From a virus, in the IMG/VR virus record IMGVR_UViG_3300029309_000014, positions 1 to 64,000 of that record: DNA of 64,000 bases. The stretch is one strand, 5' to 3'. The position numbers were made by a program, and so were the translations under genes. Shown piece by piece: positions 1-63,751 of this stretch (positions are counted from its first letter, which is position 1; each line of letters opens with the position of its first letter). The notes beneath the pieces are model-generated. The model saw only the letters and a list, made by a program, of their open reading frames with translations, was not told where the DNA came from and did not search any database.

Positions 1-256
1 TGTCACTGCTATCAATCCAAATCTGAAATCGGTTTTGAGCATCAGCACCAGCCGAATAAAGTACATGATCACCGCTTGATGTAAGGCTGCGTTTAACCCA
101 ACAACTAAACGTAAATGTCCTACGATTACCGGCAGACGCAGGGGTTCTTGTTAATCTCTGACTCAACCCATCATCAAACTTCAACGATTGATCAAGCAGA
201 TGGCTGTAAAAGCCTGTGCTTACTTCTCCTGAACCTGCTGCTTGAATTATACTCAT
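1..256 (-). CDS. Large LamG-type tail fibre, N-terminal fragment (copy A), cut by window edge
   Basis: This is the first 85 codons of a tail-fibre-like protein; the rest lies before position 1. It starts with MSIIQAAGSGEVSTGFY and continues into a concanavalin A-like (LamG) strand region (RTFTFSCWVKRS). It is almost identical to the start of the 1158-residue gene at 55738-59214, differing mainly around residues 18-23. The start is the ATG at 254-256. It lies just downstream of the 330-residue fibre-associated gene, as in copy B. A host-contact role is inferred from the family. Confidence 0.8.
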   Translation of the reverse strand, partial: MSIIQAAGSGEVSTGFYSHLLDQSLKFDDGLSQRLTRTPASAGNRRTFTFSCWVKRSLTSSGDHVLYSAGADAQNRFQIWIDSSD

Positions 257-265
257 AATTAAACC

Positions 266-1258
266 CTAAGTTAAGATAGCCGTAGCACCTACAAGAATTG
301 TATTATTCCCGCTAGCCGCAGTTACATAATATGTCACAAAGTAAGTACCTGTTGCACTCAACGCAGTCAAAACATCTGCATTTATGGCTACATCCGCGTG
401 TGCGCTAACTGTATGATTGCCACCATTTACAAATTTAATAGAGCCTGATTGACCAGCAGCTTTGTTTGTGAAGGTCATTGTGACACTTCCTGCGGTTGTC
501 GTGGTAAAATTGTTCCCTACTTCCAAATCATAAGTCGCATCATTTTCAGCGGTTATTGTGCTGCCGATTGCTCTGCCAACTACTGTAACATCATCATTTA
601 CAGTTAAAATTGTTGTGCCTGTTGCAATAGAAGCTACAGTCGCATCCGCATCATTTTTAATAGTAACATCTGATGTAGAGCCTTGACCTGTTAGTATCAG
701 CCCCTCTGCCGCAGTAAAACCAATCGCTGCATCATCTCCAGCCGCAGTATCTCCTGCGGCTTGTAATGTCCCTGCCGCAACAATATCGGCAGCAGCATTG
801 AATGTACCAGCTATAGATAAATCAGTAAGAGCATCAACCACTGCCGCGCCACTACCTGCTCCATCCAGATAAACCATAGATACCTGACCATTTGGTATGG
901 TTACATTTGCTCCAGATCCTTGACTAATTATGATGCTATAAGGACCAGAACTACCACTGTCTGTAGTGGCATTCTCAATTATATGAACCCTGCTATTAGT
1001 ATTCGGACCAATAGTAATTGTACAGTTTGAGTCTAAAGCACCTGTATACTTAATATACATAGCTCTAGCTTGATCGGTAGATCCATCAGCTACTGTGCTT
1101 GTATGGGTATCAGCATTTGTTGTTATAGCTTCTGTGCCAAAACCAAAGGCTTCCCCAATAAGCTCAAGGTTAGTATTAGTTGTTGTTCCCCAAGTACCAG
1201 AACCATCGCCAGTACCTAGCTCATTAAGTCTTAGATCATTTACATAGGTGCTTGCCAT
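266..1258 (-). CDS. Tail fibre-associated structural protein (copy A)
   Basis: A 330-residue protein rich in Thr, Ala, Gly and Asn. The opening residues (MASTYVNDLRLNELGTGDGSG) and the remainder, built of short beta-prone segments such as TSDVTIKND and GSIKFVNGG, are typical of phage tail-fibre or tail-needle proteins in marine viruses. No enzyme motif is visible. The homologue at 59224-60216 is the most conserved pair of the duplicated cassette, with substitutions concentrated around residues 45-75 and 240-250. It sits between a small repeat protein and the large LamG fibre gene, so a role in fibre attachment or as a short fibre is likely but not shown. Confidence 0.7.
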   Translation of the reverse strand: MASTYVNDLRLNELGTGDGSGTWGTTTNTNLELIGEAFGFGTEAITTNADTHTSTVADGSTDQARAMYIKYTGALDSNCTITIGPNTNSRVHIIENATTDSGSSGPYSIIISQGSGANVTIPNGQVSMVYLDGAGSGAAVVDALTDLSIAGTFNAAADIVAAGTLQAAGDTAAGDDAAIGFTAAEGLILTGQGSTSDVTIKNDADATVASIATGTTILTVNDDVTVVGRAIGSTITAENDATYDLEVGNNFTTTTAGSVTMTFTNKAAGQSGSIKFVNGGNHTVSAHADVAINADVLTALSATGTYFVTYYVTAASGNNTILVGATAILT

Positions 1259-1268
1259 TTTTCTGTCC

Positions 1269-1739
1269 TTACGCTGCTATATCTGTCCAATTAGGTGTTT
1301 GTGAAACTGTAACTCCTGCCCAACTTGGTGTTTGTGATGGAACTATTGGTCTATAAAGTATTTCTTCTCCTACCGCACCTGTCCCGACTACACCTGTGGG
1401 AAACACTCCTATTGAAGCTATAGGTGCTACCGTCCCTGTTCCTAATGTGGCAGTTATAGAGTTACCTGTAACCGCGAAAGTCGCCGCACCTGTTTCGGTA
1501 GTGTTTCCTAACGTACTTGTTCCAGCAGACCCAGTAACCGCAAAAGACGCTGTTCCTGCTACACTAACAGTTCCTACTGCACCTGTTGCCGCTACTCCCG
1601 TTGCAGGAATTTCTAGCACATTTTGTACAGTGGGGGATCCTAATGCGGTAGTTCCAGCAACTCCTGTTACAGCAAGTGGAACACTTTGGTTCCACGCACC
1701 TTCACCCCAAGTTCCTCTACCCCATCCTGTTAACGACAT
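1269..1739 (-). CDS. Glycine/threonine repeat tail protein (copy A)
   Basis: A 156-residue protein starting MSLTGWGRGTWGEGAWN, a GWG-x-G-x-WG motif seen in many uncultured phage tail genes. The rest consists of about five imperfect repeats of 20-25 residues of the type VTGxxGTxxLGxxT, likely to form beta hairpins. It ends with tandem SQTPxW units. The homologue at 60227-60697 has the same length with substitutions scattered through the repeats. A similar GWGxGTWG segment occurs in the stabilisation-like protein at 53267-55153. Probably a minor virion or fibre component. Confidence 0.65.
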   Translation of the reverse strand: MSLTGWGRGTWGEGAWNQSVPLAVTGVAGTTALGSPTVQNVLEIPATGVAATGAVGTVSVAGTASFAVTGSAGTSTLGNTTETGAATFAVTGNSITATLGTGTVAPIASIGVFPTGVVGTGAVGEEILYRPIVPSQTPSWAGVTVSQTPNWTDIAA

Positions 1740-1750
1740 AGGCTACCTCA

Positions 1751-2203
1751 TTAGGCTATCCGAATGATTGCATTACTTGCATCTGCTGTCGGAAACTGAA
1801 TTGTAAATGTCCCTGAAGTAGATGTTTTATTTGAAGTAAAATCCAATACCGCAACAGCTTTATTACTGTTCGTGCTATTATATATCAAAGCACCCATTGC
1901 TGTAATAGTAGCTGATGTAAAACTTAAATCAGCGAAATCAGTAAGTGCAGTTGTACCAGATGTAGTTGGTGCGACTTTAGTAAGCGTTCCACCCCCAGAG
2001 GAATATGTGCCACTGTCTGCAACCTCACCAGTAGTAGTGAATGCGGTTGTTGCTGCACCAAGAGTAGCTGTAGTGCTTGATTTACCGCCACTACCCTCTG
2101 CGTATAGAGCAAGTTTAAATGTGTTACCGTTTGTTGCGAAATTGTGTGTGCCTAGCATTAACTCTTGTTTAAATGCGGTACACATTGCTTGTGTAATTGC
2201 CAT
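1751..2203 (-). CDS. Conserved phage structural protein (copy A)
   Basis: A 150-residue protein beginning MAITQAMCTAFKQELMLGTHNF. The pattern FKQELMxGxHxF followed by FKLALY is common in virion genes of marine podoviruses and cyanophages, where it is only known as a conserved structural protein. The remainder is beta-rich (TTSGTTALTDFADLSF). The next gene on its 5' side ends within its start codon (TAATG-type junction at 2203), suggesting translational coupling. The homologue at 60709-61161 differs at roughly one residue in ten. Exact role unknown. Confidence 0.7.
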   Translation of the reverse strand: MAITQAMCTAFKQELMLGTHNFATNGNTFKLALYAEGSGGKSSTTATLGAATTAFTTTGEVADSGTYSSGGGTLTKVAPTTSGTTALTDFADLSFTSATITAMGALIYNSTNSNKAVAVLDFTSNKTSTSGTFTIQFPTADASNAIIRIA

Positions 2204-2490
2204 TACAGTCTCCCAATAGCTTCTGCTAATTCAATTTGTCCAGCTTCACGAACCTTCGCGCAAATACTAGCACGTTCTTCTTTCCTCGCCAACTCTATAT
2301 AGTATTGCGCTAGATTTCTTACTCTATCCCTAAATGCCTCAGCTTGTAAACGTATTGGCTCTGGGGCATCTTCAGATACATATAATAGTTTATTTGCTAA
2401 CATTTCAGATATTTGGTCATTAGATAAACCTCCATTTTCAGAGGTCATAACTTTTACAGAGCCGACTGACCCAGTGCTAATATCAAACAT
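2203..2490 (-). CDS. Small conserved virion-region protein (copy A)
   Basis: A 95-residue protein. The chosen ATG (MFDISTGSVGSV) has a GGGAGG ribosome site seven bases upstream; an in-frame TTG further upstream lacks one. The C-terminal half is helical and charged and strongly conserved with copy B (APEPIRLQAEAF, NLAQYYIELARKEERASI). It overlaps the upstream gene by eight bases and the downstream start by one. Function not recognised; its placement among adaptor and fibre genes suggests a morphogenesis factor. Confidence 0.65.
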   Translation of the reverse strand: MFDISTGSVGSVKVMTSENGGLSNDQISEMLANKLLYVSEDAPEPIRLQAEAFRDRVRNLAQYYIELARKEERASICAKVREAGQIELAEAIGRL

Positions 2491-3160
2491 TATCATGCCT
2501 CCCAAACATGACAGGGTTACTTTCCACAGGTTCTGGTGGTTTAAACTCAGATTGTTTCACTATCATTAAACCACCCTCCTGCACTGTTTGTACAAGAGGA
2601 TCTTCTAATCTGTGGTATCCGTACAGTTTCTCATTATCTGGAACATTGGTGTCTAATAGAGTAGACCTATGAGCCACTTCTAATTTTATACCTTTACTAG
2701 CAGCTATAGCGCACCAAAACTCTACACAAGCCCTGCCTGATTCAGCCGTATTTACATCTTTGTAAGTGAAGTCTAAACCATACAAACAAAGGCAAGTTAC
2801 TTTTTTCCATATTGCGTATGCTATTGCGTAAGCGACAGTATTATTGAAATAACAATAACCTAGCTCTGTAGCGACTTCTTTAAGAGGATAAAGTTTTAGT
2901 TGTTTAACTCTTTTATCTAGCTGACAAGTATAGATAGGGTTTTTATTTTTCTCTAAAAACTCTCTAGCTATACCTGTTTGCGTGTGAGCATTTTCCGTAT
3001 CTAAAAACCTAGATACAGGATCCATCATAAAAGTTTTATCAACGTGGATTACCGCACCTATAGAATTGATGCCCCAAACTTCATCAAACTCTTGTGACGC
3101 TACCCTTGCGGCTATGTAATCTGCGTAACTCCCACCTAACCCTACTATAGCTACCTTCAT
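2483..3160 (-). CDS. Rossmann-like conserved phage protein (copy A)
   Basis: A 225-residue protein starting MKVAIVGLGGSYADY, a beta strand and glycine-rich turn typical of a Rossmann fold. The centre has Cys- and aromatic-rich stretches (YCYFNNTVAYAIAYAIW, LCLYGLDFTY) and a later ACVEFWCA motif; the C-terminus (EKLYGYHRLEDPLV) is highly conserved with copy B. Such proteins occur in marine phage tail modules with no assigned function; a nucleotide- or sugar-binding role is only inference from the first 15 residues. It overlaps the adaptor gene by four bases (ATGA). Confidence 0.65.
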   Translation of the reverse strand: MKVAIVGLGGSYADYIAARVASQEFDEVWGINSIGAVIHVDKTFMMDPVSRFLDTENAHTQTGIAREFLEKNKNPIYTCQLDKRVKQLKLYPLKEVATELGYCYFNNTVAYAIAYAIWKKVTCLCLYGLDFTYKDVNTAESGRACVEFWCAIAASKGIKLEVAHRSTLLDTNVPDNEKLYGYHRLEDPLVQTVQEGGLMIVKQSEFKPPEPVESNPVMFGRHDNV

Positions 3161-4011
3161 GTTCTTGCCCGATCGGGTAGTCCTCTTCTATAAGCATCGG
3201 AATTTTCACGAGCTTCAGCAAGGTCTTTTACTCTACTAATTGCCTCTCCAAATCTGCCGTTATACAGATTCATCATATCTTGTTCACCTTTCATATAGGT
3301 GTATGCTTCAAATAAACTGCCGTACAACATCGCATTTGGTGCGTTTTCACTCAAAAATGTTTTAGTTGTGTCGGCAGAAGTAGAAACAACCACTCCAGTA
3401 GCACCGCTTGTGCCACCTGTCACAGTTTCTCCAACAGTGAACGTTCCTGTTGGAATAATCACAACAAACTCTGTAGCTGAAGTAATTGAGCTAATCGTAG
3501 TGCTTTCTGCACTTGTGCCGCCTGTTATAGTTTCTCCAGCTACAAAAGTGCCGGAAACACTACTCACAGTAAGACTAAAAGTGCTTTCTGATAAACTTGT
3601 AGGACGATAATAGTAATGAAGTTCTGTATCAAAATTTGCATTTGGCGTAGGGGCTAATATAAAAGTTTGATGGTCATAAGCAGCATAGTATCTAGGTATA
3701 CCAGTTGTGCTTGAATTTGGATTAAACTCTTGCAGATAATTAACGTCTTTTTGTAATAGAAAAATTTTATTGCTAGAGCTCGTAATAGAAAGACTAAACG
3801 AAGCTAAATAGTCCGTGGGGGTAGCTAAGAATTGATTACCAGATGTTATGGAACCAGAAACATTTTTACGAAAAAACTCTAAATCAACAGTTGAAAAAAT
3901 GCGTTGCTCTGTTGATTGAATAAATCTGTTTAGATTAGAAACAAAGCTAGTCTCATTATTATCTGTATAGTCTTGTATAGCCGACTTTAATTCTGTGTAT
4001 GTGTAACTCAT
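3157..4011 (-). CDS. Tail adaptor protein, SU10-adaptor/gp11-like (copy A)
   Basis: Probably the adaptor ring between portal and tail. The protein starts at the ATG overlapping the previous stop (MSYTYTELKSAIQDYTDN), giving 284 residues. The N-terminal helices (FVSNLNRFIQSTEQRIF), the membrane-like strand FLATPTDYLASFSLSI, the segment FNPNSSTTGIPRYYA and the ELHYYYRP motif match the adaptor family of short-tailed phages. Residues about 155-215 hold an inserted pair of repeats, each with GET[IV]TGGTS, absent from minimal adaptors. The C-terminus is helical (LYGSLFEAYTYMKGEQD). Copy B at 62115-62969 keeps the insert. Confidence 0.75.
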   Translation of the reverse strand: MSYTYTELKSAIQDYTDNNETSFVSNLNRFIQSTEQRIFSTVDLEFFRKNVSGSITSGNQFLATPTDYLASFSLSITSSSNKIFLLQKDVNYLQEFNPNSSTTGIPRYYAAYDHQTFILAPTPNANFDTELHYYYRPTSLSESTFSLTVSSVSGTFVAGETITGGTSAESTTISSITSATEFVVIIPTGTFTVGETVTGGTSGATGVVVSTSADTTKTFLSENAPNAMLYGSLFEAYTYMKGEQDMMNLYNGRFGEAISRVKDLAEARENSDAYRRGLPDRART

Positions 4012-4781
4012 GGTGTGTTTGCTTGCCATCCCATGCCGCTATGATTAGTACAATAGTAATACAGCGTTGGAGCTCCAGAAGCTACTGTTATTTGAGTATA
4101 AGCCCCAGAAGATCCAGGAGTTCCGTTTGTTGTAACTCCTGTTGTGTACTGAGAACCGCCCCCATGCGTGCCGTTTGCAGTTGTGCTAAACCTTAATGGA
4201 TGCCCTGAATTAGAAGAATCGCTTTGATCAAATCTATAAGTGCTACCCTCTGATAAACTTAATAATACATCCGATGTAGCAGTAGAACCATTTATTGCAA
4301 ATTTATTAGAAGAACCCACATTGTAATAAGGATGATTAACTGGATTGCCTCCGACCACTGTTACAGTATATGTTGCTGCTATAGCAGAACCTGTTCCAGA
4401 AGCTGTAACTGTGCCAACTGATCCTGTGCCAGAAACTCCTGTAATAACTGAGGTCACAGGTGTAGTTACATCACCTCCAAATGTAACTGTTCCTACTTGT
4501 CCTGTAATAGATGGGAGGTTCGGCTCTTTTGCAAAAGTATCATCATTAGTGACAGGAAAAGAAACAGTTATGTCTTGTGTTTCAGAAACATCAGGTCTCG
4601 GTTTATATAATGCCTCTGCATCTGCTCCTGTTTGGGTAGGCTCTAATTGTCTTGCTTTAGGTTCATAGCATTCAGGACATACTTTCAGATTATTCCACTC
4701 TTCACGCAAATCGAGGTAGGGGTATCTAAAACCACACCTATCGCAGATACCATAAGAATATTTGCCCAGAGCGTATGCCAT
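4008..4781 (-). CDS. Zinc-ribbon plus cupredoxin-like virion protein (copy A)
   Basis: A 257-residue protein. Near residues 13-16 and 36-39 there are CDRC and CPEC pairs, a classic zinc ribbon. The middle holds short beta repeats (TGQVGTVTFGG, GVSGTGSVGTVT). The last 125 residues resemble a small cupredoxin: YRFDQSDSS, GHPLRFS with a candidate His ligand, then YYYCTNHSGMGW, which supplies Cys, His and Met in C-x2-H-x2-M order like a type 1 copper site. Copper binding is inference. The ATG at 4781 overlaps the preceding stop by one base. In copy B the cupredoxin part is almost unchanged but the zinc-ribbon cysteines are gone. Confidence 0.65.
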   Translation of the reverse strand: MAYALGKYSYGICDRCGFRYPYLDLREEWNNLKVCPECYEPKARQLEPTQTGADAEALYKPRPDVSETQDITVSFPVTNDDTFAKEPNLPSITGQVGTVTFGGDVTTPVTSVITGVSGTGSVGTVTASGTGSAIAATYTVTVVGGNPVNHPYYNVGSSNKFAINGSTATSDVLLSLSEGSTYRFDQSDSSNSGHPLRFSTTANGTHGGGSQYTTGVTTNGTPGSSGAYTQITVASGAPTLYYYCTNHSGMGWQANTP

Positions 4782-5458
4782 CAACCAAACCCATAGTAAT
4801 CTCTTCTAGGAACCAAACTGAGATTAGCTCTATCTACATCTTCATAAGCTGCGCGAGCAAATTCTTCTTCATAAACCGCCTTTAAAATTTGTATTCTATC
4901 AGGAGCTTTTTTCATCGCAAGATAGTAAGCCAATCCCGCAGCTAAACAAGGGTAAAACCTAAAAGGAACATCCAATGTATCTGTTGCGGAGTCTGCATCT
5001 TGTATACGAGTCAACCTATCGTATACTAATGTATACGCCTTATCAGGGGTAGGCCATAATCTGATTTGTGGGGTTATTTGCCTATCCACATACCATTGGC
5101 TCGGTTGCGCCTCTGTATTTTTGCTCGGTATATTTATAAAAGTATCTCTACTTATACGAGTTATTTGAGTGTCCGATTGAGAGGTTCCTGTCCCTGTTCT
5201 TATGACAGCACTCAAAATATCAATCGTATCAGCAGGAAGAGAATATATAGCAGTGCTTGCCGTTATGGAAAGAGTACTTTGCTCTATAGTCCACCTATTT
5301 AAACCCCTATTTGCCCAATCAGCAAATAACAGATTCATAGAACGTTTAGCCGTTTTTAAATCATAACCTGTTCTAACCTCTAAGCCACAACGCTCAAAAG
5401 CTTCCTCAATGTAATCACTTACATCAAGTTCAAAATCTGTGGACTCAGAGGTAGCCAT
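4781..5458 (-). CDS. Tail accessory/head completion protein, gp4-like (copy A)
   Basis: A 225-residue protein starting MATSESTDFELDVSDYIEEAFERCG. The segment LKTAKRSMNLLFADWANRGLNRW, followed by YSLPADTIDILSAVIR and QWYVDRQ, is the pattern of short-tailed phage accessory factors (P22 gp4-like) that stack on the portal. The C-terminal FRFYPCLAAGLAYYLAMK is very conserved. It lies directly upstream of the cupredoxin-like and adaptor genes, fitting a connector role. A diverged, edge-truncated homologue is at 63751-64000. Confidence 0.7.
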   Translation of the reverse strand: MATSESTDFELDVSDYIEEAFERCGLEVRTGYDLKTAKRSMNLLFADWANRGLNRWTIEQSTLSITASTAIYSLPADTIDILSAVIRTGTGTSQSDTQITRISRDTFINIPSKNTEAQPSQWYVDRQITPQIRLWPTPDKAYTLVYDRLTRIQDADSATDTLDVPFRFYPCLAAGLAYYLAMKKAPDRIQILKAVYEEEFARAAYEDVDRANLSLVPRRDYYGFG

Positions 5459-5724
5459 TAGCTATACGGACCTTTGATAACTTTTGGGTTATTTCTGTTG
5501 ACCATACCACCTTTTGACATTTTCATTGGCTTTTTGACCATACCGCCTTTAGCCATTTTTTTCATGTCTTTTTTGACCATACCGCCTTTAGCCATCTTCA
5601 TTTTTTTGACCATACCGCCTTTAGCCATCTTGGTCTTTTTGACCATACCGCCTTTAGCCATTTTTCTTGGCTTTTTTACCATGCCGCCTTTTGCGTACAT
5701 TTTCTTTTTCATCTTTTTCGCCAT
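5458..5724 (-). CDS. Lysine-rich KGGM-repeat basic protein
   Basis: An 88-residue protein made almost entirely of six copies of a MAKGGMVKK-type unit separated by one to five basic residues, ending NPKVIKGPYS. The start chosen is ATG-GCG at 5722-5724, which has GAGGATG upstream; longer readings lack a site. It overlaps the end of the upstream 250-residue gene by about 70 bases in another frame. Such repeats recur in marine phage genomes without known function. The high positive charge and regular glycines suggest nucleic-acid contact or packaging, which is inference. Confidence 0.65.
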   Translation of the reverse strand: MAKKMKKKMYAKGGMVKKPRKMAKGGMVKKTKMAKGGMVKKMKMAKGGMVKKDMKKMAKGGMVKKPMKMSKGGMVNRNNPKVIKGPYS

Positions 5725-6406
5725 TTTCTTCATCCTCTTCTGCGTAAAGATTATCAAAGATCCGATTTACATCCATTGTATAGTCTAAATCAGATTTTGA
5801 ATAGTGAATGTGTTGTGAAGGTTTAAACTTAGGAGCACCCTCACCTGTTACATACCAAGCAGGATGTGTAACCCTCACACGATTATTAGGCAAAGCCACA
5901 ATATTTCCTGTCCACTTACCAGCATCTAATAACTCTAACACATGGCTTTGTTTGTGCTGAGCTGGATCATCTGCTACCTCACTATCTGTATAATCAACAG
6001 TGAAAAAATATTTAGCTGGATAAAATTCACCTTCTATCTTAGCAAGCCACGGACAGGGTTGGGCTCTGTTTAAACTGTATACAGAGTGTGTGTGAGACAT
6101 ACAATCCCAAGGCTGTGCTTGGTATACATCCATCGGTTCAGGCCAGCCCTCAAATGCTGTATCACCGACTAAAGCTGTTATTGGCATCCTTGCCCACATA
6201 GCACCACCATGAACGTTTTCTTCACCAGTTATATCACTTTCACAACCTGTAAATAAAACTTGGAAACTCAAGCATCTATTTGGCATAGTCGTTACGGCTA
6301 TTGCCATTGCATGAAGGAACTCTCCATGGAAGTCTTCGTGATTGCAAGTATACTCTCTCCTCACCCAACATTTGAAGTAAGGGACGTTACTTGTTAAAAA
6401 ACTCAT
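5654..6406 (-). CDS. Conserved marine-phage protein of unknown function
   Basis: A 250-residue protein starting MSFLTSNVPYFKCWVRREY. It is rich in aromatic residues, His and Cys (CNHEDFHGEFLHAM, WDCMSHTHSVYSLNRAQPCPW), then carries TGNIVALPNNRVRVTHPAWY and a very acidic-to-basic tail (EEDEENGEKDEK followed by KRRHGKKAKK). The tail overlaps the KGGM-repeat gene. I recognise it as a type of protein found near head genes in uncultured phages but not its function. It starts four bases inside the neighbour's stop (ATGA). Confidence 0.6.
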   Translation of the reverse strand: MSFLTSNVPYFKCWVRREYTCNHEDFHGEFLHAMAIAVTTMPNRCLSFQVLFTGCESDITGEENVHGGAMWARMPITALVGDTAFEGWPEPMDVYQAQPWDCMSHTHSVYSLNRAQPCPWLAKIEGEFYPAKYFFTVDYTDSEVADDPAQHKQSHVLELLDAGKWTGNIVALPNNRVRVTHPAWYVTGEGAPKFKPSQHIHYSKSDLDYTMDVNRIFDNLYAEEDEENGEKDEKENVRKRRHGKKAKKNG

Positions 6407-58700: not shown

Positions 58701-59214
58701 CAGCGGAATAACTTGATCCCCCTATTGCATGAGCAACCGTGTTATTCATATGCGTATCTAAATTTTGTGTTGGGGTTGTTGTGCTTGTGTAAGCGTATGA
58801 TGTTCCATTGACAGAAAGTACAATTCTATTTCCAGCAGTGCCATCGGTAGTATCGACTGTAACAACTACATTATACCATGCTGAAGGATCTCTAAATTTA
58901 GCGGTAGTATAAACATAAATTTGATCACTATTAGATGTGTTTTGGTAAACAGCTAATCTGTCACTGCTATCAATCCAAATCTGAAATCGGTTTTGAGCAT
59001 CAGCACCAGCCGAATAAAGTACATGATCACCGCTTGATGTAAGGCTACGTTTAACCCAACAACTAAACGTAAATGTCCTACGATTACCGGCAGACGCAGG
59101 GGTTCTTGTTAATCGCTGACTCAACCCATCATCAAACTTCAACGACTGGTCAAGCAGTAGCTTGTAAAAGCCTGTGCTTACTTCGCCTGAACCCGCTGCT
59201 TGAATTATACTCAT
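55738..59214 (-). CDS. Giant LamG/SPRY-type tail fibre
   Basis: A 1158-residue protein with concanavalin A-like and SPRY-like folds. Residues 30-200: LamG domain (RTFTFSCWVKRS, YVYTTAKFRDPSAWYNVVV, DGYIAEVNAIDG). Then three or four units with GLSSAPKWVIAKNR-type strands (F-x-G-x-S-T, W-x-x-K-N/S-R, W-x-DS/TTR) alternate with a SPRY-like unit (about 610-780: SGKWYVEVKSIAGFGWVGFSH, DIIGIAADFDSGTVEFFINN). The last repeats lie at about 800-1158. It is likely to bind host glycans. The first 85 codons are nearly identical to positions 1-256. Confidence 0.75.
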   Translation of the reverse strand: MSIIQAAGSGEVSTGFYKLLLDQSLKFDDGLSQRLTRTPASAGNRRTFTFSCWVKRSLTSSGDHVLYSAGADAQNRFQIWIDSSDRLAVYQNTSNSDQIYVYTTAKFRDPSAWYNVVVTVDTTDGTAGNRIVLSVNGTSYAYTSTTTPTQNLDTHMNNTVAHAIGGSSYSAVSLLDGYIAEVNAIDGAALTAASFGETKNGIWIPKDTSGLTFGTNGFHLTFKDDVISEGFNTAIFEGNSTTQSISGLGFSPGLVWVKDRDNGNSHAWSDVVRGRGRNLISNATNAEVSAAAATDKDLISFDADGFSVGQFEDGTYNNNGSSMVAWCWEAGGAPTADNSAGAGATPTSGSVKIDGSNLGSALAGSIAATRISANTARGFSIVTFEGTSTAGSVAHGLSSAPKWVIAKNRDSSTEWPVYHDSVNSGGGSYLRLDSTAANTSSSIIWTDSPSSTVVNIGTYEYVNRDSMVLYCWAEVSGYSKFGSYTGNGSATGPTVTTGFAPAWIMIKSSVGTIGHWNIWDTTRHPSNPNDDRLYANLSNAEDAGGSYDIEVTATGFQIKHTGSDVNTSSATYIYMAFADTREAAFFKDVSSNGNHFTPVNLDYRDSVPDVPTNNFVTLNPLYTFQSGGTNYFSPTLSEGNLRADYSSTSGALFAASTIFVDSGKWYVEVKSIAGFGWVGFSHFTNSSTSAGYALILENGSKDYNGTSVSAVDSVSDGDIIGIAADFDSGTVEFFINNASQTQRDISSFVGVGKFFAFGAYLSGSDNLVHFNFGQDSSFAGLHATANSNADGNGHGSFAYAPPSGFLALCSQNLPDVDIIDGTDNFNTVLYTGDGSTTQNVTVGFDPDFTWIKSRSSGSGHHSLVDSVRGDKALNSNQTIAEYGVGPFNSNANGTIDVPYYANDYSMNTNSATYVAWNWLAGTAFSNDASATGVGTIDSTGQVNTTAGFSIVSYTGTGSAGTIKHGLSAAPEMLIVKNKDTARDWMVYHSALGATKRIWLNYTLAQDSGTAASATWNDTAPTSTVFSIGNNIHINESGDNYICYAFHSVEGYCKVGSYVGNGNADGSFVYTGFRPAWIMVKNYGTTGGWEIHDNKRPGYNPAEKTVDANTTAAESNSNDLDILSNGFKVRNTYGTSNGSANTYIYLAFADQPFKFSNSG

Positions 59215-59223
59215 GATTTAGTC

Positions 59224-60216
59224 CTAAGTTAAGATAGCTGTAGCACCTACAAGAATTGTGTTATTGCCACTGGCCGCAGTTACATAATATGTCACAAAGT
59301 AAGTGCCTGTTGCACTCAGCGCAGTTAATATGTCTGCATTAATAGCTACATCTGCGTGTGCGCTAACTGTATGATTACCGCCATTTACAAATTTAATAGA
59401 GCCTGATTGACCCGCAGCTTTATTTGTAAAAGTCATCGTTACAGTTCCGGCTGTAGTAGTAGTAAAATTATTTGCCGTTGCTAAATCATAAGTCGCATCA
59501 TTTTCAGCCGTTATTGTGCTGCCGATTGCCCTGCCAACTACCGTAACATCATCATTTACAGTTAAAATTGTTGTGCCTGTTGCAATGGAAGCCACAGTAG
59601 CATCCGCGTCATTTTTAATAGTAACATCTGATGTAGAGCCTTGGCCCGTTAGGATCAGGCCCTCTGCCGCAGTAAAACCAATCGCGGCATCATCTCCGGC
59701 AGCAGTATCTCCTGCGGCTTGTAATGTCCCTGCCGCAACAATATCGGCAGCAGCATTGAATGTGCCAGCTATAGATAAATCAGTAAGGGCATCAACTACG
59801 GCCGCACCACTTCCCGCACCGTCCAAATAAACCATAGATACCTGACCATTTGGTATAGTTACATTGGCTCCAGACCCTTGACTAATTATAATACTATAAG
59901 GACCAGAACTACCACTGTCTGTAGTGGCGTTCTCAATTATATGAACTCTGCTTATAGTGTTTGGGGCTATTGTAATTGTGCAGTTAGAGTCCAAAGCACC
60001 TGTGTATTTTACATACATATTGCGAACAGGATCTGCTGCCCCATCAGCTATAGTGCTTGTGTGCGTATCAGCATTTGTTGTTATAGCTTCTGTGCCAAAA
60101 CCAAATGCTTCAGCTATAAGTTCAAGGTTTGTATTTGTTGTTGTTCCCCAAGTACCAGAACCATCGCCAGTACCTAGCTCATTAAGTCTTAAATCATTTA
60201 CATAGGTGCTTGCCAT
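59224..60216 (-). CDS. Tail fibre-associated structural protein (copy B)
   Basis: A 330-residue homologue of 266-1258 with the same length and start. Substitutions are limited and clustered: around residues 35-75 (GEAF to AEAF; DQARAMYIKY to DPVRNMYVKY) and around residue 245 (LEVGNNF to LATANNF). The rest is nearly unchanged. A tail fibre or baseplate role is inferred. Confidence 0.7.
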   Translation of the reverse strand: MASTYVNDLRLNELGTGDGSGTWGTTTNTNLELIAEAFGFGTEAITTNADTHTSTIADGAADPVRNMYVKYTGALDSNCTITIAPNTISRVHIIENATTDSGSSGPYSIIISQGSGANVTIPNGQVSMVYLDGAGSGAAVVDALTDLSIAGTFNAAADIVAAGTLQAAGDTAAGDDAAIGFTAAEGLILTGQGSTSDVTIKNDADATVASIATGTTILTVNDDVTVVGRAIGSTITAENDATYDLATANNFTTTTAGTVTMTFTNKAAGQSGSIKFVNGGNHTVSAHADVAINADILTALSATGTYFVTYYVTAASGNNTILVGATAILT

Positions 60217-60226
60217 TTTTCTGTCC

Positions 60227-60697
60227 TTACGCTGCTATATCCGTCCAATTAGGTGTTTGTGAAACTGTAACTCCTGTCCAACTTGGTGTTTGTGATGGAA
60301 TTATTGGTCTATAAAGTATTTCTTCCCCTACCGCGCCTGTCGCTGAAACCCCCGTTAAAAAGAAGCCTATTGAAGCTATAGGTGCTACTGTCCCTGTTCC
60401 TAATGTAGCAGTTGATGAAGCTCCTGTAACTGCGAAAGTTGCTGCCCCTGTTTCGGTAGTGTTTCCTAACGCACTTGTTCCGGCAGACCCAGTAACCGCA
60501 AAAGCTGCTGCACCTAGTACGCTAACAGATCCTACCGCCCCTGTTCCAGCAACTCCTGTTACAGAGACTTCCAAAACATTTTGTACAGTAGGAGACCCTA
60601 ATGCGGTAGTTCCAGCAACCCCTGTTACAGCAAGTGGAACACTTTGGTTCCACGCACCTTCACCCCAAGTTCCTCTACCCCATCCTGTTAACGACAT
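60227..60697 (-). CDS. Glycine/threonine repeat tail protein (copy B)
   Basis: A 156-residue homologue of 1269-1739 with the same length, GWGxGTWG opening and repeats. Differences fall inside the repeat units (for example VSVAGTASF against VSVLGAAAF), as expected of sequence that is free to drift while holding a fold. Confidence 0.65.
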   Translation of the reverse strand: MSLTGWGRGTWGEGAWNQSVPLAVTGVAGTTALGSPTVQNVLEVSVTGVAGTGAVGSVSVLGAAAFAVTGSAGTSALGNTTETGAATFAVTGASSTATLGTGTVAPIASIGFFLTGVSATGAVGEEILYRPIIPSQTPSWTGVTVSQTPNWTDIAA

Positions 60698-60708
60698 AGG
60701 TTACCTCA

Positions 60709-61161
60709 TTAGGCTATCCGAATAATTGCGTTACTTGCATCTGCTGTTGGGAACTGAATGGTAAATGTCCCAGAAGTAGAGGTTTTATTTGAACTAAAAT
60801 CCAAAACCGCAACAGCTTTATCACTATTTGTATCGTTGTAAATTAACGCGCCCATTGCTGTAATTGTAGCTGTTGTGAAACTAAGATCTGCAAAATCAGT
60901 CAAAGCTGTCGTACCAGAAGTGGTCGGAGCAACTTTAGTAAGAGTACCACCACCCGCCGTGTAAGAGCCGCTGTTGGCTACCTCACCCGTGGTTGTGTAA
61001 GCTGTCGTTGCTGCACCAAGAGTAGCTGTAGTGCTAGACTTACCGCCACCACCCTCTGCGTAAAGAGCCAGCTTAAAAGCATTACCGTTTGTTGCGAAAT
61101 TGTGCGTACCCAACATCAATTCTTGTTTGAATGCGGTACACATTGCTTGTGCTATTGCCAT
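60709..61161 (-). CDS. Conserved phage structural protein (copy B)
   Basis: A 150-residue homologue of 1751-2203 (MAIAQAMCTAFKQELMLGTH), differing at about one residue in ten, for example NGNAFKLALYAEGGGGK. Same one-base overlap with the next gene. Confidence 0.7.
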   Translation of the reverse strand: MAIAQAMCTAFKQELMLGTHNFATNGNAFKLALYAEGGGGKSSTTATLGAATTAYTTTGEVANSGSYTAGGGTLTKVAPTTSGTTALTDFADLSFTTATITAMGALIYNDTNSDKAVAVLDFSSNKTSTSGTFTIQFPTADASNAIIRIA

Positions 61162-61448
61162 TACAGTCTCCCTATAGCGTCAGCTAGTTGATGTTGACCC
61201 GCCTCACGGACCTTGGCGCAAATACTAGCACGTTCTTCCTTCCTAGCCAACTCTATATAGTATTGTGCTAAATTTCGGACTCGATCCTTAAAAGCCTCCG
61301 CTTGTAAGCGGATGGGTTCTGGAGCATCGTCAGAAATATAAATAAGTTTGTTAGCCAGCATCTCTGCTATTTGATCATTAGATAAACCACCGTTTTCGGA
61401 AGTCATTATATTAACGGCTCCCACACTTCCTGAACCTAAATCAAACAT
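61161..61448 (-). CDS. Small conserved virion-region protein (copy B)
   Basis: A 95-residue homologue of 2203-2490 (MFDLGSGSVGAVNIMTSENGG) with GGGAGA upstream. The APEPIRLQAEAF to IELARKEERASI block is unchanged, and differences cluster at both ends (REAGQHQLADAI). Function unknown. Confidence 0.65.
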   Translation of the reverse strand: MFDLGSGSVGAVNIMTSENGGLSNDQIAEMLANKLIYISDDAPEPIRLQAEAFKDRVRNLAQYYIELARKEERASICAKVREAGQHQLADAIGRL

Positions 61449-62118
61449 TGTCATGTCTCCCAAAAATTATAGGGTCGGACTCTACTGGCTCTGGAGGTTG
61501 AATCATGGACTGTTTTGTTATCAACAGACTACCATTCTCAACCGTTTGAACTAAAGGATCCTCTAATCTATGATACCCATATAACTTTTCATTTTCTGGC
61601 ACATTGGTATCCATTAAGCCCGATCGATGCGCTATCTCTATCTTTATGCCTTTGGAAATAGCTGTAGCGCACCAAAACTCTACACAAGCTCTTCCAGACT
61701 CAGCCATGTTTACGTTTTTGTAAGTAAAATCTATGCCAAATAGGCATATTTTTTTTACTTTTTTCCAAATGGCGTAAGCTATAGCGTAAGCTACCGTGTT
61801 ATTAAAATAACATAGCCCAGTTGCTTTAGCTATTTTTTCTAATGGATACAACTCTATAGCCGGGAAATCTGGATGTTCTATACAAGAATATATGGGGGCC
61901 GTATTTTTAGCTAAAAACTCACGAGCTATGCCTGTTTGAGAACCGGCATTTTCTGTGTCTATAAACCTAGATACAGGATCCATCATGAAAGTCCTATCGA
62001 CGTGTATGATGCCACCAATACAATTTATACCCCAAGTTTCATCAAATTCTTGAGAGGCAACTCTGGCAGAAATATAGTCAGCGTAGCTGCCCCCTAGTCC
62101 AACAATAGCAATTTTCAC
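61441..62118 (-). CDS. Rossmann-like conserved phage protein (copy B)
   Basis: A 225-residue homologue of 2483-3160 (MKIAIVGLGGSYADYISARV). It is more diverged than genes nearer the fibre: residues 75-105 differ almost entirely (CIEHPDFPAIELYPLEKIAK against CQLDKRVKQLKLYPLKEVAT), while the YGYHRLEDPLVQTV block is identical. Same four-base overlap with the adaptor gene. Confidence 0.65.
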   Translation of the reverse strand: MKIAIVGLGGSYADYISARVASQEFDETWGINCIGGIIHVDRTFMMDPVSRFIDTENAGSQTGIAREFLAKNTAPIYSCIEHPDFPAIELYPLEKIAKATGLCYFNNTVAYAIAYAIWKKVKKICLFGIDFTYKNVNMAESGRACVEFWCATAISKGIKIEIAHRSGLMDTNVPENEKLYGYHRLEDPLVQTVENGSLLITKQSMIQPPEPVESDPIIFGRHDNV

Positions 62119-62969
62119 GAACGGGCCCTTCTTGGTAGCCCCTGCCTGTTTGCATCATCATTTTCACGGGCCTCACCTAAGTCTTTCAGCCTGACTAAGG
62201 ACTCTATAAATCTCTCACTGTACATCTTCATCACATCCGCTTCACCCTTCATAAAGGTGTAAGCCTCTATAAGACTTCCATACAAAAGAGCATTAGGCGC
62301 GTTCTCGCTTAACCAAGTTAATGTTGTATCGGCAGAGGTTGATACAACTGTCCCGGTAGCCCCACTTGTGCCCCCTGTAACCGTCTCTCCAACGGTAAAA
62401 TCTCCCGTAGGCAAAACTATTACAAATACAGTAGACGACGTGATAGAGTTAATCGTCGTGCTCTCCCCGCTAGTTCCACCTGTAATGGTCTCATTAGCAG
62501 CAAACGTGCCAGTAACACTGCTTACCGTTAAATTAACCTTACTTTTTGTTAAGCTAACAGGTCTGTAATAATAATGAATTTCTGTTTCAAAAGATGCGTT
62601 TGGCGTAGGTGCAAGTATAAAGTTATTTACGTCATACATGGCGTAATATTTTGGAACACCCGTGGTTGATGAATTAGGGTTATACTCCTGCACAAAATTA
62701 ACATCTTTTTGTAACAAAAATTCTTTAGAACTAGAGTTCACTATGGATAAACTAAAAGAAGCTAAATAATCATCTGGTGTGGCCATAAATTGATTACCAG
62801 AAGTCATTGTTCCAGATGCGTTTTTTCTAAAAAACTCTAAATCTACACTTTTAAATATACGTTCTTCAGCGGATCGAATAAACGTGTCTAAATGAGACAC
62901 AAAAACTGTTTCTTGATTGTCTGTGTAATTTTTTACAGCCGTTTTTAGCTCTGTGTATGTATAACTCAT
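62115..62969 (-). CDS. Tail adaptor protein, SU10-adaptor/gp11-like (copy B)
   Basis: A 284-residue homologue of 3157-4011 (MSYTYTELKTAVKNYTDNQE). The family landmarks FMATPDDYLASFSLSI, FNPNSSTTGVPKYYA-type segment and EIHYYYRP are kept, as is the inserted GETITGGTS/GETVTGGTS pair. Helical end regions vary (MYSERFIESLVRLKDLGE). Confidence 0.75.
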   Translation of the reverse strand: MSYTYTELKTAVKNYTDNQETVFVSHLDTFIRSAEERIFKSVDLEFFRKNASGTMTSGNQFMATPDDYLASFSLSIVNSSSKEFLLQKDVNFVQEYNPNSSTTGVPKYYAMYDVNNFILAPTPNASFETEIHYYYRPVSLTKSKVNLTVSSVTGTFAANETITGGTSGESTTINSITSSTVFVIVLPTGDFTVGETVTGGTSGATGTVVSTSADTTLTWLSENAPNALLYGSLIEAYTFMKGEADVMKMYSERFIESLVRLKDLGEARENDDANRQGLPRRARS

Positions 62970-63751
62970 GGTGTGTTCGCCTGCCAACCCATACCACTGT
63001 GATTAGTACAATAGTAATACAGAGTAGGAGCTCCGGAAGCTACTGTTATTTGTGTATAGGCTCCAGAGTATCCGGGTGTACCGCTTGTGGTTACGCCAGT
63101 TGTGTATTGAGATCCACCACCATGTGTCCCATTTGCGGTGGTGCTGAATCTTAAAGGGTGTCCTGAATTAGAGGAGTCACTTTGATCAAACCTATAGGTG
63201 CTGCCCTCTGACAAACTTAACAATACATCTGACGTAGCGGTAGACCCGTTGATTGCAAATTTATTAGAAGAACCCACATTGTAATAGGGGTGATTTGCGG
63301 GATTACCGCTCACTACAGTAACCGTATATGTGGCAGCGATTGTAACGCCTGTTACGGAAACAGTAACAGTACCTATAGAACCCGTGGCCGCTTGAGCCCC
63401 CGAAACAAGATGGCTAGTAGGTGTATGCACATCTCCACCGAAAGTAACGGTCCCTATTTCTCCAAGAATTGAAGGAAGTTTAGGTTCATAACTAAGGGTG
63501 TTCTGGTTAAAAATTGGAAAAGTAATCGTCACACTTTCAGTAGAAATCTCAGGTCTATCTGGACGAGGATCACGTAAAGTCTGAGGATCAAACACCTTTC
63601 GGAAAGGACCTAACTGTGGATGCTTTCTTTCAAACTCGTCTTTTCCAACAAGCAAACCATTCCACTCTTTACGCATGTCCTTATATCTGTAGCGAAGTCC
63701 AGAACGATCTGAAATAGCATAAGCGTATTTCCCGGTTGCATACCTAGCCAT
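62966..63751 (-). CDS. Cupredoxin-like virion protein without zinc ribbon (copy B)
   Basis: A 261-residue homologue of 4008-4781. The last 120 residues (from ATYTVTVVSGNP to GMGWQANTP) are almost identical, including the His and the C-x2-H-x2-M motif. The N-terminus is very different: YAISDRSGLRYRYKD and VGKDEFERKHPQLG replace the CDRC and CPEC pairs, so the zinc ribbon is lost. A GQVGTVTFGG-type beta unit is retained (GEIGTVTFGG). Confidence 0.65.
   Translation of the reverse strand: MARYATGKYAYAISDRSGLRYRYKDMRKEWNGLLVGKDEFERKHPQLGPFRKVFDPQTLRDPRPDRPEISTESVTITFPIFNQNTLSYEPKLPSILGEIGTVTFGGDVHTPTSHLVSGAQAATGSIGTVTVSVTGVTIAATYTVTVVSGNPANHPYYNVGSSNKFAINGSTATSDVLLSLSEGSTYRFDQSDSSNSGHPLRFSTTANGTHGGGSQYTTGVTTSGTPGYSGAYTQITVASGAPTLYYYCTNHSGMGWQANTP

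Follow-up and report, generated by a model that had tools for sequence, protein, structure and literature searches.

Organization of the locus

The window analysed here is the whole stretch of 64,000 nt taken from the IMG/VR virus record IMGVR_UViG_3300029309_000014 (positions 1 to 64,000). The open reading frame (ORF) under study has a coding part that, without the stop codon, spans 4011–4781 on the minus strand and encodes 257 aa. Along the protein, a zinc-ribbon-like N-terminal part is followed by a low-confidence linker and a C-terminal cupredoxin domain (Table 1). The C-terminus reads ...APTLYYYCTNHSGMGWQANTP, and the tail carrying Cys244, His247 and Met250 is YYYCTNHSGMGWQANTP. No signal peptide was seen at the N-terminus of the protein.

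Table 1. Coordinates of the ORF, its domains, the predicted copper ligands and associated genes within the window
Feature	Position	Strand	Basis or remark
Whole ORF, virion-region protein	4008–4781	minus	257 aa; ATG at 4781, stop ends at 4008
Zinc-ribbon-like N-terminal domain (CDRC...CPEC)	4578–4781	minus	Zn_ribbon_8 sub-threshold; phrog_28581
Cupredoxin domain, aa 131–257 (start approximately 131)	4011–4391	minus	AF2 model and cupredoxin matches
His194, predicted copper ligand (first His, GHPLRF)	4200–4202	minus	Near-invariant column; aligned with the bridge-protein His that matches the plastocyanin ligand His
Cys244, predicted copper ligand	4050–4052	minus	Alignments and conservation
His247, predicted copper ligand	4041–4043	minus	Alignments and conservation
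Met250, predicted axial copper ligand	4032–4034	minus	Loop C-x2-H-x2-M, amicyanin spacing; Gln in one bacterial copy
Upstream neighbour, head/tail structural protein	4781–5458	minus	phrog_12985, phrog_399, phrog_10775
Downstream neighbour, virion structural/connector protein	3157–4029	minus	phrog_2941; part matches head closure Hc2, phrog_460
'Copy B', homologous gene	62966–63751	minus	261 aa; shares the cupredoxin domain but has lost the Cys residues of the N-terminus

Among the families matched by the genes next to the ORF are those of virion structural, tail and head closure proteins, and the major head protein is encoded a few genes upstream. The placement in a virion adaptor region, proposed from the sequence alone, agrees with this context. 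Several other features of the region were observed. The downstream connector-like protein contains a GETITGGTS-type repeat segment, which has further matches in large virion structural families and in head closure Hc2 and resembles another mobile insert. Repeats of a lysine-rich KMAKGGMVKK unit make up a small protein encoded at 5458–5757, and the repeated end of the record has a gene resembling it. A gene near the connector genes (5654–6406) matches phrog_3704 'ferredoxin' (E 4e-28) without an NCBIfam model, and this label may be wrong.

The two domains of the protein are separable. In relatives, the N-terminal zinc-ribbon-like domain is mostly a separate protein of ~115 aa, and a scan with this domain alone found the cupredoxin in 9 of 79 proteins. 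Proline-rich linkers join the two domains in some relatives. Likewise, the full-length model (pLDDT 70.6) consists of two confident parts with a low-confidence stretch between them, and is poor outside both domains. Thus, the cupredoxin is an optional, tethered accessory module on a small zinc-ribbon protein.

Fold and sequence relationships of the C-terminal domain

The beta sandwich anticipated by the sequence-only reading was recovered when the structure was predicted; the AF2 model of the domain, built from a 97-sequence alignment starting at aa 127, has a pLDDT of 90.9 and a pTM of 0.86. In a structural second look with VIA, all 50 of the 50 matches listed are cupredoxin-domain proteins, with most of the domain aligned at Z 6.8–7.9, a range below the value of 8 under which, by the tool's own warning, similarity can reflect a common arrangement. 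Among the matches listed are nitrite reductases, laccases, rusticyanin, auracyanin and the purple cupredoxin 5fc9. Foldseek against the PDB places rusticyanin best and several amicyanins near the top, with a weak best E of 0.016, and its list also has an azurin with an amicyanin loop. The model is a Greek-key beta-sandwich of the cupredoxin type, with individual scores that are modest. Given these scores, the weight of the fold assignment rests on the unanimity of the VIA matches together with a bridge in sequence to known blue copper proteins, which matters because a Z below 8 alone may reflect a common arrangement. Carbohydrate-binding module (CBM), Ig and PPC folds were also considered; they gave sub-threshold sequence matches only and are absent among the VIA top 50, which is not a formal exclusion.

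Direct searches of Pfam, NCBIfam and PDB sequences with the 257-aa protein returned no cupredoxin. The protein lies below every Pfam cut-off and gave no match to PF00127 Copper-bind (cut-off 21.2 bits), which may be the reason that the domain has stayed unnamed. Weak Copper-bind matches occur in 9 of 97 family members (best E 0.023). The A1 profile against the PDB gave a weak pseudoazurin line only (E 0.58), and when A1 was aligned directly to one PetE sequence with hhalign the E-value was 0.47, so a bacterial intermediate is needed for the link. Such an intermediate was found in a Bacteroidetes single-cell genome, a domain of which is matched by the family profile at E 3.9e-5. This bridge domain scores 29.2 bits against Copper-bind, where the gathering cut-off is 21.2; the scores of bacterial relatives passing the cut-off are 29.2 and 23.5 bits. 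It also matches plastocyanin 1b3i (phmmer, E 5.6e-5) with the His, Cys, His and Met residues aligned. In a profile–profile comparison of the phage family with five bacterial sequences led by the bridge domain, the probability was 99.2 and the E-value 1.9e-19, and all four ligands line up in the alignment. The earlier proposal of a cupredoxin-like domain is therefore supported by the fold, by the sequence bridge with all four ligands aligned and by the all-or-none conservation of the ligands described below, and there is very little doubt that a cupredoxin domain forms the C-terminal half of the protein.

Conservation and distribution of the predicted copper site

From the sequence alone, Cys, His and Met had been noted in type 1 copper order, with a further His in an earlier GHPLRF motif; these residues are Cys244, His247, Met250 and His194 of the ORF. 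The ligand set His, Cys, His, Met/Gln is kept in 333 of 342 homologous copies, a count with a bias towards intact copies because the retrieval peptides partly covered the Cys-His loop; this bias does not affect second copies found within one locus, nor the cyanophage tail regions, which were searched whole. The full sets comprise 330 copies with HCHM, two with a longer loop that still reaches Met (the second gp7 of P-HM1 and of P-HM2, with one extra loop residue) and one with Gln for Met. The remaining nine copies lose at least two ligand positions together, examples being L026 (NSNL), L064 (NSNY), gp7 copy 1 of P-HM1/2 and copy 2 of Syn1, and loss of exactly one ligand was found in none of the 342. 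Additionally, the ligand columns rank among the most conserved of the family. A chance motif is ruled out by the number of homologous loci, at least 596 in IMG/VR, together with the joint conservation of the four residues.

These patterns bear on the main rival explanation, in which a cupredoxin-derived beta-sandwich serves as a structural or adhesive module only, working without metal, and the metal residues are historical. The persistence of the ligand-less copies is consistent with such a module, as are the sub-threshold CBM_4_9 matches in 16 of 97 family members and the behaviour of the domain as a mobile accessory. However, a module of this kind predicts that ligands decay one by one, whereas the observed copies keep the full set or lose two or more positions at once, in columns that are among the best conserved. 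The all-or-none ligand pattern therefore argues against a purely structural module, and this explanation is considered unlikely.

Blue copper proteins usually have Pro or Gly before the second His (PROSITE PS00196). The loop of the phage family is without Pro/Gly at this place, and the strict pattern matches none of 354 copies; the relaxed form [YF]-x-C-x2-H-x(2,4)-[MQ] matches 331 of 354. Gln is the axial ligand of stellacyanin. At the end of a secreted-looking 424-aa ORF of a Porticoccaceae MAG (L294), Gln was observed at the axial Met position.

The site could instead hold another metal, or its copper could be of type 2 or of the red/purple kind; one use of such a site would be a metal-presenting mode of entry. 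The residues between Cys and His differ from those of canonical blue copper proteins, and the structural matches include the purple cupredoxin 5fc9, both of which would suit such a site. On the other hand, the ligands follow the order and the loop spacing of type 1 copper proteins, especially amicyanin, and the one natural axial substitution is a stellacyanin-like Gln. Even allowing that iron in phage tails has already been proposed (PMC11705849), a site of this other kind appears quite improbable, less likely than the metal-free module. Type 1 copper remains the preferred reading, and the domain probably binds copper in the virion.

Constraint on the domain is evident from a homologous gene near the end of the window, which the sequence-only reading had called copy B and had described as keeping the domain almost unchanged while the rest diverges. 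That description holds: 6 of 127 residues differ over aa 131–257, against 62 of 130 over aa 1–130. Within aa 161–257 the two genes differ at 2 of 97 residues and by 47 synonymous codon changes, with 32 of 54 fourfold sites changed. As synonymous sites are heavily diverged, the near-identity of the domain reflects constraint at the protein level and not recent copying; recent duplication or gene conversion is ruled out by the same divergence. The cupredoxin domain of both genes is held by selection on the protein, in line with the strong constraint that had been proposed.

The origin of copy B appears to differ from what its name suggests. The part of the 69,322-base record that begins at base 58,959 and runs to the last base is colinear with the first part, the main aligned blocks having about 66–81 % DNA identity. 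The repeated stretches are 1–4526 and 58959–63487 in the window and 58959–69322 in the whole record. Phage 023Pt_psg01, with a gene order comparable to that of this region, is a circle of 59,769 bases. It is likeliest that the record starts with a genome of ~59 kb, to which the assembly has attached ~10 kb from a related strain. Given this colinearity and the size of the 023Pt_psg01 circle, copy B most likely comes from the second, related genome and would not be a paralogue. A true duplication within one genome is not favoured, the whole record end being colinear with its start. Thus, the constraint drawn from comparing the two genes is real, while the idea of a second copy in one genome probably has to give way to that of a joined relative. 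Copy B also reads SDRS...GKDE at 63548–63751, where the ORF at 4578–4781 has the four-Cys CDRC...CPEC; the surrounding residues still align, and both motif types occur among cupredoxin-carrying relatives.

In the INPHARED collection the domain is present in 325 phage records, nearly all of them from phages of Synechococcus and Prochlorococcus; phages of Pelagibacter and Methylophilales are also represented. The carrier proteins are annotated as tail fibre, gp7, gp9-type connector or 'virion structural'. A copper-binding protein in a phage tail had been called unusual beforehand; it is unusual as an idea, but it is not rare, since hundreds of marine phages carry the domain. Mass spectrometry of S-SM1 virions is among the work reported in PMC3037559.

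In BFVD, 62 structural matches were found at E up to 0.001. The name 'cupredoxin' is absent from the 50 of these 62 that were listed, and several are giant-virus 'beta-sandwich proteins'. Those of Pithovirus LCPAC and Marseillevirus LCMAC among the structural matches are A0A481Z6J5, A0A481YY19, A0A481YWX9 and A0A481Z7Q7. Cellular relatives are scarce; the proteins that contain them are of surface type, among them collagen-like proteins of Bacteroidetes. In Bacteroidetes AG-914-G02 (L292) the open frame that contains the cupredoxin domain is 10,091 aa long; other Bacteroidetes (L297–L299 and L301) have the domain in collagen-like proteins.

A last alternative is that, during infection, a redox-active blue copper domain passes electrons in the periplasm or at the surface of the host. 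The type 1 ligand set would allow this, and cyanophages also encode the soluble plastocyanin PetE as a gene of its own. However, the domain resides in tail and baseplate proteins and not in a soluble periplasmic protein, it is carried alike by phages of photosynthetic and non-photosynthetic hosts, and no redox partner is apparent. Electron transfer is thus regarded as very improbable, and likewise ranks below the metal-free module.

Proposed role and comparison with known systems

The explanation that we consider probable overall is that a cupredoxin domain with an intact ligand set, carried on a connector-region protein, is displayed on the particle surface, loaded with copper and aids attachment. 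Of this, the fold, the ligands, the constraint, the modularity and the distribution come from the computations, and display on the particle, copper loading and adhesion are inferred. The cupredoxin would hang by a flexible linker on the zinc-ribbon protein, most likely exposed on the outside of the virion, close to the neck or tail. It would be made metal-free in the reducing cytoplasm of the host and could pick up copper at lysis, either from the periplasm or from seawater. The bound metal would then fix the loops of the exposed face, through which the particle may hold host or other surfaces. That surface attachment is the main role of the domain is suggested with less confidence, as a tentative assignment. 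Equally tentative is the extension to marine tailed phages as a group, which may carry a copper-loaded type 1 cupredoxin on tails or connectors, metallated at release and acting in attachment or entry.

If copper is bound, there is a metal centre on the tails of marine phages that infect Synechococcus, Prochlorococcus, Pelagibacter and Methylophilales. The idea of metal in tails, so far argued for iron, would extend to copper, and copper supply could affect infection. Virions would be copper-binding particles in seawater, a countable class for marine chemists. The proposal would be directly testable on the cultured phages S-TIM5, P-HM1/2, HTVC028P and Mosig. With the domain present on tail fibres and baseplates of hundreds of marine phages, copper may belong to how ocean viruses work.

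Searches that combined cupredoxin or blue copper with phage tails found no relevant open-licence paper, and no annotation was found that names the domain a cupredoxin. What is present here combines a known fold with a predicted metal site of known kind; the subfamily has no name, and its place is unexpected. As in the plastocyanin, azurin and amicyanin proteins of PF00127, the domain is a beta-sandwich with the first His on an earlier loop; the Cys-x2-His-x2-Met loop before the last strand, followed by Gly, has amicyanin spacing, and homology to PF00127 runs via the bacterial intermediate that passes the Pfam cut-off. Unlike these secreted, soluble electron carriers, the phage domain sits in virion-region proteins without a signal peptide seen. 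It also differs from them in having no Pro/Gly before the second His, in its longer central segment and in falling below the Pfam cut-off.

In tailed phages, Ig-like domains are optional, mobile beta-sandwich additions to virion proteins whose function is otherwise unchanged. The phage cupredoxin is likewise an optional, mobile beta-sandwich on virion proteins, but it has cupredoxin topology and a conserved set of metal ligands. Iron in phage tails (the Ferrojan or Trojan horse hypothesis) was proposed from HxH motifs in the fibre of a marine alterophage (PMC11705849). Both cases place metal sites in tail proteins of marine phages, yet the cupredoxin fold is different and its Cys/His/Met set points to copper, not iron. 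Finally, cyanophage PetE plastocyanin (e.g. of ACG-2014d) is also a cupredoxin encoded by marine phage. PetE is host-derived and metabolic, with a gene of its own and a soluble product, whereas the domain described here is built into proteins of the tail and connector.
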